A stretch of DNA of 10,685 bases, from assembly GCA_026713205.1 (NCBI GenBank), contig JAPOOY010000235.1:1-10685 (forward strand), written 5' to 3'. The position numbers and the translations under genes were made by a program. Under the pieces are notes generated by a model. It was not told the DNA's origin. It saw only the letters and a program-made list of their open reading frames with translations, and did not search any database. The DNA comes from Bdellovibrionales bacterium (GTDB taxonomy: Bacteria; Bdellovibrionota; Bdellovibrionia; Bdellovibrionales; UBA1609). Each line of letters opens with the position of its first letter. Within the stretch, counting starts at the first letter, position 1. Positions 1,164 through 10,685 of the stretch are shown here, piece by piece.

Positions 1164-1284
1164 CCCTTCCTGAGAGTCTATGGGGGTCAAAAGTGAGTTC
1201 GGCTTTGACACAGATGCGACTGAAAGTCGCTCTGTGGCAAAACGCATGTTTGAACTTTTGACCCCCATAGACTCTCAGGAAGGG
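1164..1284 (-). repeat. 121-bp palindromic repeat, copy A (inverted relative to B and C)
   Basis: Arms 1164-1193 and 1255-1284 are a perfect 30-bp inverted repeat. The 61-bp interior holds a second hairpin (1209-1236: CACAGA and TCTGTG, then GCGACT and AGTCGC with a 3-nt loop). Read on the minus strand, the interior matches copies B and C almost base for base, while the arms differ from B at seven positions, each mirrored in the opposite arm. Flanking bases are also shared: TTACA outside one arm and CTAA (CTTA in B) outside the other. It lies between tsaD and murG. It could be a non-autonomous mobile element, a structured RNA, or both. Confidence 0.9.
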
Positions 1285-4756: not shown

Positions 4757-4810
4757 TTATACTCCTCCAGTTTGAAATTTTCCGGTTTTTCATAATAAAG
4801 AATGCTTACA
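4757..4810 (+). repeat. Outer flank of repeat copy B
   Basis: TTATACTCCTCC, a GTTTGAAATTTTCCGG block, TTTTTCATAA and GCTTACA lead into the left arm of copy B. Copy C has the same order with a handful of changes (10514-10567), and copy A has a diverged version. Read on the minus strand it ends in GGAGGAGTATAACC, an SD-like sequence followed after 3 nt by an ATG, but that frame closes after nine codons. Confidence 0.75.
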
Positions 4811-4931
4811 CCCTTTATAACAGCCTATAGGGGTCAAAAATTCAAACATGCGTTTTGCCACAGAGCGACTTTCAGCCGCTACTGTGTCAAAGCCGAACTC
4901 ATTTTTGACCCCTATAGGCTGTTATAAAGGG
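4811..4931 (+). repeat. 121-bp palindromic repeat, copy B
   Basis: Arms 4811-4840 and 4902-4931 are a perfect 30-bp inverted repeat. The interior contains a hairpin at 4859-4886 (CACAG and CTGTG outer pairs, GCGACT against AGCCGC with one mismatch). It lies between the convergent ends of the 154-aa gene and the secreted-protein gene. No T-tract follows either arm, so it is not a standard intrinsic terminator, though a hairpin this strong could still stop or protect transcripts. Confidence 0.93.
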
Positions 4932-4962
4932 CTTATGTCTCTTAAATAAAAACAGGAAAAAT

Positions 4963-4996
4963 TCAAACACGATTGGTATATATGAATCGTGTTTGA
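4963..4996. repeat. 12-bp hairpin flanking repeat copy B
   Basis: TCAAACACGATT (4963-4974) pairs perfectly with AATCGTGTTTGA (4985-4996) around the 10-nt loop GGTATATATG. It starts 31 bp after the end of copy B, matching the position of the hairpin beside copy A (1101-1138) although the stem bases differ. On the plus strand a T-rich stretch follows after about 10 bp (GATTTTTTG), so a terminator role for the 154-aa gene is possible but weak. Confidence 0.6.
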
Positions 4997-5045: not shown

Positions 5046-5118
5046 CAAATTCACACAGGCGTTTTGCCACAAAGTGACTTGTAGTCGCTCCGTATCAAAT
5101 CCGAACTCCCTTTTGAAT
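5046..5118 (+). repeat. Degraded repeat copy D, without arms
   Basis: GCGTTTTGCCAC, a GTGACT-TGT-AGTCGC hairpin and TCAAATCCGAACTC match the interior of copies A-C in order and orientation with scattered changes. The 30-bp arms are missing or unrecognisable. The inner hairpin survives, with one G-T pair. The reading frame that is open in A-C is broken here: the ATG has become AGG and a TGA appears six codons later. Confidence 0.75.
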
Positions 5119-5141: not shown

Positions 5142-6128
5142 TCAATATGTATAGGTATCTGCTTCAAGAGAATTTGTAAAAGCAAGTTCAACAATACCTT
5201 TTGAATTACAAATCCTTACATTATGCCCTTCCTTCACCTTGGAAGGAATAGCATTTCCCTCGTAGCCATCTTGTATTTTTTCCAACCAATATTGTGCGGT
5301 GGCGAAGTTGGCCTTCTGATCTGGAACTGCTGCAGGCAAAATCACAAAATATAATTCCGCGGAAGAATAATCCGGCTTGGAATTTTCAGCTTCAATCATA
5401 ATGGGCATTACAAAAAACCGCGGCAATGGTGGGGGAATCGGTAAAGGTTTTGGCGGCAATGGCAGCTTAGAGTCCTCACCTTCAATCATAATGGGCATTA
5501 CAAAAAACCGTGGCAATGGTGGGGGAATCGGCAAAGGTTTCGGTGGTAATGGCAGCTCACCATCATACTGAAAGAACTCCTCACCACCTGATAAAATAGA
5601 TGCCAGTGATGATTCGCCAGAGGGAGACATAAAGCAGGCGGCTGAAGAGGCAGAATTCTTTTTGAGTTTGACGGCAGAGGACTCTCCCCTAAGAGCGCGC
5701 ATATTTCCTATTTTGGAAAAATATTGAACATTTTGAATCCCTTCCTGATCAAGGCCAAAATTCGGATTCCAATAAGCCCTTAAAGGCATAACAAAAGAAT
5801 GACCTCCATTGTTACTTGAAAAGGCTGCCATTTGTTTCTCAAGCTCATCATTGATAAGCTCCAGAACAGCATTATTCCTCTTTCCATTAAAAAAGGTGTG
5901 AAAATCAACCCCTCCCTTCTCAAAGAGAATCCAAAGACTATCTCCTGCCGCCTGTTCAATGGAGGCGGAGGCTATTGCAGAAGGAAAATAATTTTCTATA
6001 TATTCTTTTTTGAAAAATCCTTGTTCACCCCGATAAAATTTATTTTCATAATACCCCTCATCGGCAAAACAAGACAGACTTACTAAAAACCCTATTAATA
6101 TTCCGGACAGAAATAAGTATTTTTTCAT
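5142..6128 (-). CDS. Secreted protein with proline-rich tandem repeat, function unknown
   Basis: The protein has 328 residues. It has a clear Sec signal peptide, MKKY then a hydrophobic run to LSCFA, with likely signal peptidase I cleavage after Ala22 (CFA-DE). The Cys at 20 does not fit a lipobox. Residues 23-190 are mixed and resemble nothing I know; they contain GHSFVMPLRAYW. Residues 192-221 and 222-251 are two near-identical 30-residue units built of LPLPPKPLPIPPPLPRFFV, MPIMIE and a charged end. The last 75 residues contain YFVILPA, so short FVMP/FVILP strands recur through the protein. GGAGG lies 6 nt before ATG 6128. The gene starts 29 bp after the regulator's stop, so the two are probably co-transcribed. 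A periplasmic or surface protein is likely; the Pro-rich repeats could form a stiff spacer. No enzyme motif is seen. Confidence 0.85.
   Translation of the reverse strand: MKKYLFLSGILIGFLVSLSCFADEGYYENKFYRGEQGFFKKEYIENYFPSAIASASIEQAAGDSLWILFEKGGVDFHTFFNGKRNNAVLELINDELEKQMAAFSSNNGGHSFVMPLRAYWNPNFGLDQEGIQNVQYFSKIGNMRALRGESSAVKLKKNSASSAACFMSPSGESSLASILSGGEEFFQYDGELPLPPKPLPIPPPLPRFFVMPIMIEGEDSKLPLPPKPLPIPPPLPRFFVMPIMIEAENSKPDYSSAELYFVILPAAVPDQKANFATAQYWLEKIQDGYEGNAIPSKVKEGHNVRICNSKGIVELAFTNSLEADTYTY
5376..5555 (-). repeat. Two-unit 90-bp coding tandem repeat
   Basis: Units 5466-5555 and 5376-5465 encode 30 residues each. The first 25 residues are identical, and the DNA of that part differs at five codons, all synonymous (TTG/TTA, CCG/CCA, CCA/CCG, TTA/TTG, CCG/CCA in transcript order). 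The last five residues differ (GEDSK against AENSK). Confidence 0.9.
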
Positions 6129-10513: not shown

Positions 10514-10567
10514 GTTTACTCCTCCGGTTTGAAATTTTCCGGTTCTTCATAAGAAAAAACGCTTACA
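10514..10567 (+). repeat. Outer flank of repeat copy C
   Basis: GTTTACTCCTCC, a GGTTTGAAATTTTCCGG block, TTCTTCATAA and CGCTTACA match the flank of copy B closely over its whole length, with small substitutions and a short length difference in the A-rich part. It directly abuts the start of the possible 43-aa gene on the other strand. Confidence 0.78.
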
Positions 10568-10685
10568 CCCTTTATAACAGACTATAGGGGTCAAAAATTC
10601 AAACATGCGTTTTGCCACAGAGCGACCTTTGGTCGCATCTGTGTCAAAGCCGAACTCATTTTTGACCCCTATAGTCTGTTATAAA
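10568..10685 (+). repeat. 121-bp palindromic repeat, copy C (last 3 bp outside the window)
   Basis: The left arm is 10568-10597 and the right arm begins at 10659, running to the window edge; every visible base of the right arm pairs with the left. The inner hairpin lies at 10616-10643 (CACAGA/TCTGTG, then GCGACC/GGTCGC with a 3-nt loop). It differs from copy B at arm position 14 (A here, C in B, T in copy A), with the mirrored base changed each time. Confidence 0.92.

Follow-up and report, generated by a model that had tools for sequence, protein, structure and literature searches.

The window (the whole stretch analysed, 10,685 nucleotides) is the entire contig C89 of a draft Bdellovibrionales genome (1,506,820 bases in 302 contigs, 85% complete), and holds three copies of a hairpin repeat, here called A, B and C, together with a degenerate fourth core (Table 1). 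Read directly, A and B are 121-bp hairpins in which both pairs of 30-bp arms are fully complementary, and copy C shows a perfect 28-bp inverted repeat (10571–10598 with 10658–10685), its outermost positions being hidden by the contig end. Seven of the 30 arm positions (6, 7, 9, 11, 14, 19 and 30) differ between A and B, and all seven differences are mirrored in the opposite arm; the pair at position 14 takes three forms (copy A, T-A; copy B, C-G; copy C, A-T). Co-change extends to the inner hairpin of the core, which reads ACT/AGT in A and ACC/GGT in C and has an A·C mismatch at this point in B. The paired arms, their mirrored differences and the co-changing inner hairpin agree with the initial annotation, of which extent and orientation had to be amended: B and C run in one direction and A in the other, and the conserved unit is about 219 bp, reaching beyond the 121 bp described. 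RNA folds predicted for both strands of the three copies (n = 6) gave z-scores of –12.9 to –16.5, and none of 200 shuffles was equally stable for any fold. Between copies B and C, two 90-bp direct repeats (5375–5554), 89% identical and in frame, duplicate a proline-rich segment of a 328-aa ORF (5142–6128, minus strand).

Table 1. Positions of the repeat copies and their parts in the window
Feature	Position	Strand	Description
Copy A hairpin	1164–1284	–	Arms 1164–1193 and 1255–1284, core 1194–1254 (minus-strand reading); perfect arms; fold z –13.9, –16.5
Whole element around A, approximate	1118–1331	–	Remnants of outer inverted repeats in the 1098–1118 region and at 1311–1331; lower end degenerate
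Copy B hairpin	4811–4931	+	Arms 4811–4840 and 4902–4931, core 4841–4901; perfect arms; fold z –13.5, –15.2
Whole 219-bp element around B	4760–4978	+	TAC...GTA, outer inverted repeats; TA flanks 4758–4759 and 4979–4980
Left near-invariant core strand, TTCAAACATGCGTTTTGCCACA in copy B	4841–4862	+	Conserved in core alignment of 54 sequences from 7 genomes
Right near-invariant core strand, CAAAGCCGAACTCA in copy B	4888–4901	+	Conserved in the same 54-sequence, 7-genome alignment; pattern search
Degenerate fourth core	5047–5116	+	82% identity to B core, E 1.2e-12; flanks unpaired at 15 of 30 positions
Copy C hairpin, cut by contig end	10568–10685	+	Fold z –14.4, –12.9
Part of element around C held by the contig	10517–10685	+	Left outer repeat, spacer, hairpin; 169-nt repeat, 92% to 4760–4928

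Architecture and distribution of the element

The alignment of flanking sequence continues well past the arms, which places the hairpin in the middle of an element of about 219 bp with the order TA-TAC(NNN)TCCGGTTTGAAATTTTCCGG, spacer, 30-bp arm, 61-nt core, arm, spacer, inverted end and TA. Terminal inverted repeats of the form TAC(NNN)TC..GGTTTGAAATTTTCCGG occur at both ends; in a profile of 216 ends, the two preceding positions were T in 92% and A in 88%, and this TA may be a target-site duplication or may belong to the end itself. Among 50 pairs of ends that match a strict pattern 60–260 bp apart, 34 were spaced at 215–224 bp, six at 200–209 bp, one at about 250 bp and nine at 90–149 bp, and the nine short ones were found on reading to have lost the hairpin wholly or in part. 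Such loss would be expected if the hairpin forms during replication. Short elements that retain both outer ends and spacers and lack the hairpin, as if by a replication deletion, lie in the host genome (G000) at L137 18940–19032, L116 6462–6564 and L126 5507–5607. At three other host loci (L203 near 8164, L112 near 6684 and L057 near 1469) an arm is broken by an apparent second, shorter palindromic insert ending CACAGG.

A 17-base core pattern with up to three mismatches gave about 167 sites in the host genome (93 + 74), compared with 0 + 3 for its reversed control, and a second core pattern gave 95 + 71; many host contigs terminate within the repeat. The elements avoid genes: one of 116 lies mostly within an ORF of at least 150 aa, although such ORFs make up 71.8% of the 723,060 bases examined. 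Being short (below about 500 bp), without a coding gene and dispersed in many copies, the repeat is apparently the central hairpin of a non-autonomous, MITE-like palindromic mobile element of about 219 bp. A main role as transcription terminator was rejected, since the 68 elements with two near neighbours lie between 36 tandem, 17 divergent and 15 convergent ORF pairs, and those between tandem genes share the genes' orientation in 21 cases and oppose it in 15.

As regards a mobilising enzyme, DDE_3 was not found in the host genome, an incomplete draft, and DDE_Tnp_1 was found in G016 alone among seven genomes, the host among those without it (all incomplete drafts). A single 118-aa Y1_Tnp (HUH transposase) ORF, cut by the contig end, is present in the host (L310 1–354; G000 contig C72, minus strand) and absent from the incomplete drafts of six relatives; it is a possible partner of the element.

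Matches to the core at E ≤ 0.001 occur in eight of 140 genomes of the order, the host included. Seven of the eight belong to one family and three genera, and the eighth, G118, which belongs to another family, has a single 24-base match (contig C37, 35243–35266) that we take as chance. G003, one of four genomes in the host's genus, has no core copy. Across 84,980 species genomes (genome_contigs, a set from which records close to the window's genome may be omitted), the exact two-part core pattern occurs in 71 stretches confined to six MAGs (CAR1_bin_21, RHO2_bin_34, RHO3_bin_17, RHO3_bin_33, IP30a_bin.14 and IP30b_bin.7) with titles naming Bdellovibrionales, Bdellovibrionaceae or Oligoflexia, and with isolate names that we take to denote sponge samples. 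The same exact pattern had no match in viral_contigs, and a phage origin was set aside.

In each relative, the best core match has 89–92% identity over 66–71 bases. The six other Bdellovibrionales/Oligoflexia genomes carry the core with different, mostly paired arms, and the likeness of arms between genomes is slight save at the A/T-rich inner end. By eye, 54 cores from seven genomes present two near-invariant strands that flank a variable, mostly paired inner hairpin. With one genome per species compared, the TsaD protein of the host is 40–62% identical to that of G001, G004 and G016, and G001 and G003, of the same genus, have diverged too far (50–62%) to supply orthologous insertions. In G001 the core forms tandem arrays at L208 4579–4990, L209 79–370 and L217 3700–3900, with periods near 129, 128 and 106 bp, in which the inner units have a right arm and a non-matching left flank. 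At two G031 loci (L158 near 1496 and L173 near 1471), another palindrome replaces or extends the inner hairpin of the core (CGTCATTCCGGCG...GCCGGAATCA).

Pairing and covariation of the arms

From the part of the host genome that was extracted, 146 cores were obtained, of which 133 had both arms (13 lacked 30 bases on a side) and 125 also had a 61-nt core (eight did not). Ungapped pairing was perfect in 53 of the 125, left one to four positions unpaired in 45 and at least six in 27; on reading, this last class includes truncated copies, copies bearing insertions and decayed cores. The description of the arms as always perfectly paired therefore holds for the three copies in the window (for C, its visible part) and not for the genome as a whole, and the frequent unpaired arms that the initial annotation had named as counter-evidence are present in part, in those 27 copies. 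When gaps were permitted, the arms of the same copy scored at least 18 in 101 of 124 host copies, compared with 17.5% for left and right arms drawn from different copies. At the same score, and with seven copies of uncertain origin excluded, the relatives gave 7/8 in G002 (cross-copy control 21.8%), 8/12 in G004 (6.8%), 9/12 in G016 (11.7%), 6/8 in G031 (0%) and 19/21 in G135 (24.0%). The weak case is G001, with paired arms scarcely above control (41/71 versus 42.7%) and, in its tandem arrays, inner units that have no left arm matching the right.

Pairing deteriorates together with the core. Across the 125 copies, the number of unpaired positions correlates with that of changes at 37 conserved core positions (Spearman 0.47): the median is 0 where the core has no such change (85 copies), and the mean is about 10 where it has at least three (15 copies). 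Novel mismatches in subfamily 1 (16 distinct ones in 20 cells, over 60 arm sites) were only slightly rarer per site than singletons in the flanks (43 over 103 sites; 15 over 61 in the core), which indicates that correction is not fast in resting copies. Hybrid mismatches, which combine two paired alleles, account for 8 of 28 mismatch cells in subfamily 1 and 11 of 14 in subfamily 2, and point to recombination between copies or misassembly.

Covariation was evaluated on the 98 copies with the fewest mismatches, the 27 of 125 with more than five unpaired positions being dropped, against a null in which parsimony-placed substitutions on a FastTree tree were reassigned to random columns on the same branches (20 replicates). 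Fourteen of the 30 arm pairs exceeded all 145,200 null values, and pairs 26–29 scored zero. In the inner hairpin, for which covariation had also been claimed, pair 60–64, which closes the apical loop, lay above all null values, and no further pair outside the arms did so. Compensatory pairs of changes on the same branch numbered 161, against a null mean of 28.6 (maximum 41, 200 nulls) and 1–7 for slid partners; trees built from the left arm plus core, or from the core alone, gave 189 versus 33.3 and 443 versus 95.3. The earlier claim that pairing itself is kept is hence upheld by covariation far beyond a null that retains both tree and substitutions, and the converse outcome it had allowed for, covariation no greater than shared ancestry supplies, did not hold. 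RNAalifold returned no consensus structure for the core alone, a register shift of the inner helix from genome to genome being one possible cause.

As the cause of the co-change, shared ancestry by itself is rejected. The wider proposal that descent from a few subfamilies, or else an assembly artefact, mimics it is barely credible: subfamilies do exist, many contigs end in the repeat and some copies look chimeric, yet the co-change exceeds a null that preserves tree and substitutions, slid partners yield 1–7 pairs where the true partners yield 161, and seven draft genomes are alike in pattern with different arms.

Origin of the paired changes

The supply of paired changes was compared with that of single changes within subfamilies, on the presupposition, for both expectations, that the flanks evolve near-neutrally. 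Among 29 copies of subfamily 1, whose flanks differ from consensus at about 7% of sites, 18 of 870 arm pairs departed in a paired manner where independent double hits at that rate predict 1.5, and 19 were unpaired; the 18 represent 12 distinct alleles, so the cells are not independent events. For 32 copies of subfamily 2 (flanks 18–20% off), the same formula predicts about 11 paired departures, where 97 of 960 were found together with 14 unpaired. The paired changes seen are thus about tenfold in excess of what independent double hits can supply. Selection can purge mismatched copies and cannot generate second hits, and this excess weighs against independent hits. On one tree, 5.4 paired changes per arm pair compare with 4.5 substitutions per core site (6.3 to 3.9 and 14.8 to 2.5 on other trees), a ratio that depends on the tree and lies near the one expected were roughly every second single hit copied to the other arm.

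Length changes and orientation were also recorded. Six host copies carry a one-base insertion mirrored in both arms, and an inserted A in G001 is found in both arms of two copies, one arm of seven and neither arm of 14, the remaining 48 of 71 lacking the motif on a side. Automatic flank motifs placed the core in canonical orientation to its spacers in 75 copies and in the inverted one in 10; a further 38 were undecided and 23 too short. Homogenisation of arms and inversion of the spacer are the outcomes of template switching described in PMC8604942, and both were found here, the former beyond what ancestry gives. In spectrum, the paired changes look like ordinary mutations, with transitions making up 98 of the 161 paired changes, 179 of the 275 substitutions in the core and 40 of the 76 changes that break a pair. 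PMC8794818 gives 61.0% transitions for instantaneous compensations in rRNA, and involvement of G-U in 78.5% of two-step ones; our 98/161 equals the former figure, so that transition share does not discriminate and was discarded as an argument against RNA, and confidence in template switching is slightly lowered.

We favour, with moderate confidence, a MITE-like palindrome in whose active lineage template switching rewrites each arm from the other, probably with selection also keeping the hairpin. The element would become single-stranded while an active copy is replicated, or in an intermediate of transposition, and one arm could then fold onto the other and serve as its template, as in quasipalindrome template switching. 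A mutation in a single arm would be either erased or copied to the other, each arm base pair would evolve much as one site, and an inverted core could likewise result from strand switching. Selection on some step, probably mobilisation, would keep the core and maintain a hairpin of about 30 bp, so that resting copies would lose pairing with age. Of the two competing explanations offered in the initial annotation, arm-to-arm correction is the better supported, by the excess of paired changes, the mirrored insertions and the inverted cores; selection probably also acts, given that the core is conserved across three genera and that pairing falls in copies with decayed cores, and a need for the hairpin in mobilisation is its likely form. 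Because mismatches rise with decay, and because subfamily 1 has novel mismatches and hybrids occur, the rewriting is placed in the active lineage and not in every resting copy.

Independent compensatory mutation fits poorly as the source of the co-change, and compensatory selection alone, in which a folded RNA or extruded DNA strand is functional, the arms mutate independently and mismatched copies are purged or rescued, is in our judgement unlikely. Near-invariant core strands that flank outer and inner helices, variable yet mostly paired in seven genomes, do have a structured-RNA look, pairing is lost as the core decays, and comparable stems in Borrelia plasmids have been interpreted in this way (PMC2674063); the tenfold surplus of paired changes and the mirrored insertions argue against it. 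Wobble pairs bear on the question only loosely. Distinct mismatch events favour A·C over G·T on the core plus strand (G·U on the minus strand) by 60 to 38 across seven genomes (p 0.033; relatives 43:25), which hints weakly at folding of the minus strand, but the host taken by itself gives 17 to 13, which is not significant, and, of 170 distinct events, 72 are mismatches of transversion type. Counts by cell (36:16 in the host, 63:26 in relatives) had suggested a wobble preference as proof of an RNA fold, which was rejected as distinct events are weak. Controls for mutational asymmetry disagree, with 52:30 agreeing in direction, 19:84 and 14:101 pointing the other way (both inflated by shared subfamily alleles) and 25:24 for distinct rare core alleles, and a wobble bias, present or absent, is no main argument on either side. 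Nor did Rfam yield a family at gathering score, in the window or in the loci of four relatives; a permissive search of 261 bases returned sub-threshold hairpin families, at best MIR9408, a miRNA hairpin, with 34.5 of 90 bits.

Less probable again is template switching coupled to replication in every copy and at all times, with zero selection for the hairpin. It would produce the same covariation, mirrored insertions and inversions, yet the fall in pairing with core decay is not what correction acting equally on all resting copies should give, and the 89–92% conservation of the core in the relatives' best copies is left unexplained. Gene conversion or recombination between copies, spreading paired blocks that arise rarely and shuffle as units, could account for the hybrid mismatches and for core variants common to several arm subfamilies, as seen in eight copy pairs that have no core or unpaired differences and average 9.75 arm-pair differences. 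As such exchange moves paired alleles and does not make them, and as 12 distinct ones occur in 30 subfamily 1 copies, 10 of them in single copies, we consider it very improbable as the whole explanation. A further reading, held tentatively and well short of even confidence, is that the element is a structured nucleic acid of a new kind, an RNA or single DNA strand of defined polarity in which two helices of free sequence surround a near-invariant asymmetric internal loop; it would be recognised by, or act in, the mobilisation machinery, and each mobilisation would rewrite one arm, such that the hairpin is regenerated at every jump.

Relation to known repeats and implications

In its parts, the element is of known kinds, a palindromic MITE and quasipalindrome correction. 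Palindromic bacterial MITEs such as ERIC, Correia/NEMIS and the Coxiella QMITE2 are likewise small, non-coding, high-copy and mostly intergenic with inverted-repeat ends, and share with it predicted stem-loop transcripts, according to a review (PMC10969869). Unlike them, it has a conserved middle with arms that vary and co-vary between copies, no parent transposase was found for it, and in the searches made it is confined to one bacterial family. Template-switch correction of quasipalindromes, as treated for yeast genes (PMC8604942) and RNA genes (PMC8794818), similarly homogenises arms and may invert the spacer; there it was established among orthologues of known ancestry and mostly for short arms, whereas the present case is deduced from dispersed copies whose arms measure 30 bp and whose loop is 61 nt. 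The covarying stems of Borrelia plasmids also have compensatory changes, transversions included, and little mispairing, but are shorter, present in few copies (for example eleven loci) and, in PMC2674063, interpreted as conserved RNA structure. REP/REPIN sequences with Y1 transposases are high-copy intergenic palindromes too (PMC3733652, PMC8266576 and PMC3116915), and the host does have its one Y1_Tnp ORF. REPs are, however, 20–40 bp long (PMC3733652), whereas the present unit is no single palindrome of that size but 121 bp within 219 bp, with outer inverted repeats and TA, and Y1_Tnp was not found in the drafts of the six relatives. Our literature searches found no description of a conserved middle with free but coupled arms.

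The work adds a repeat family that these searches encountered within a single family of Bdellovibrionales-type bacteria and of which the literature searched gave no description. Covariation is standard evidence for functional RNA structure. In this case, more than 100 replicate hairpins in one genome present strong covariation for which a mutational process, partnered by selection, is the best explanation. The family offers a test bed for template switching versus selection, and a caution for structure calls made on mobile palindromes.
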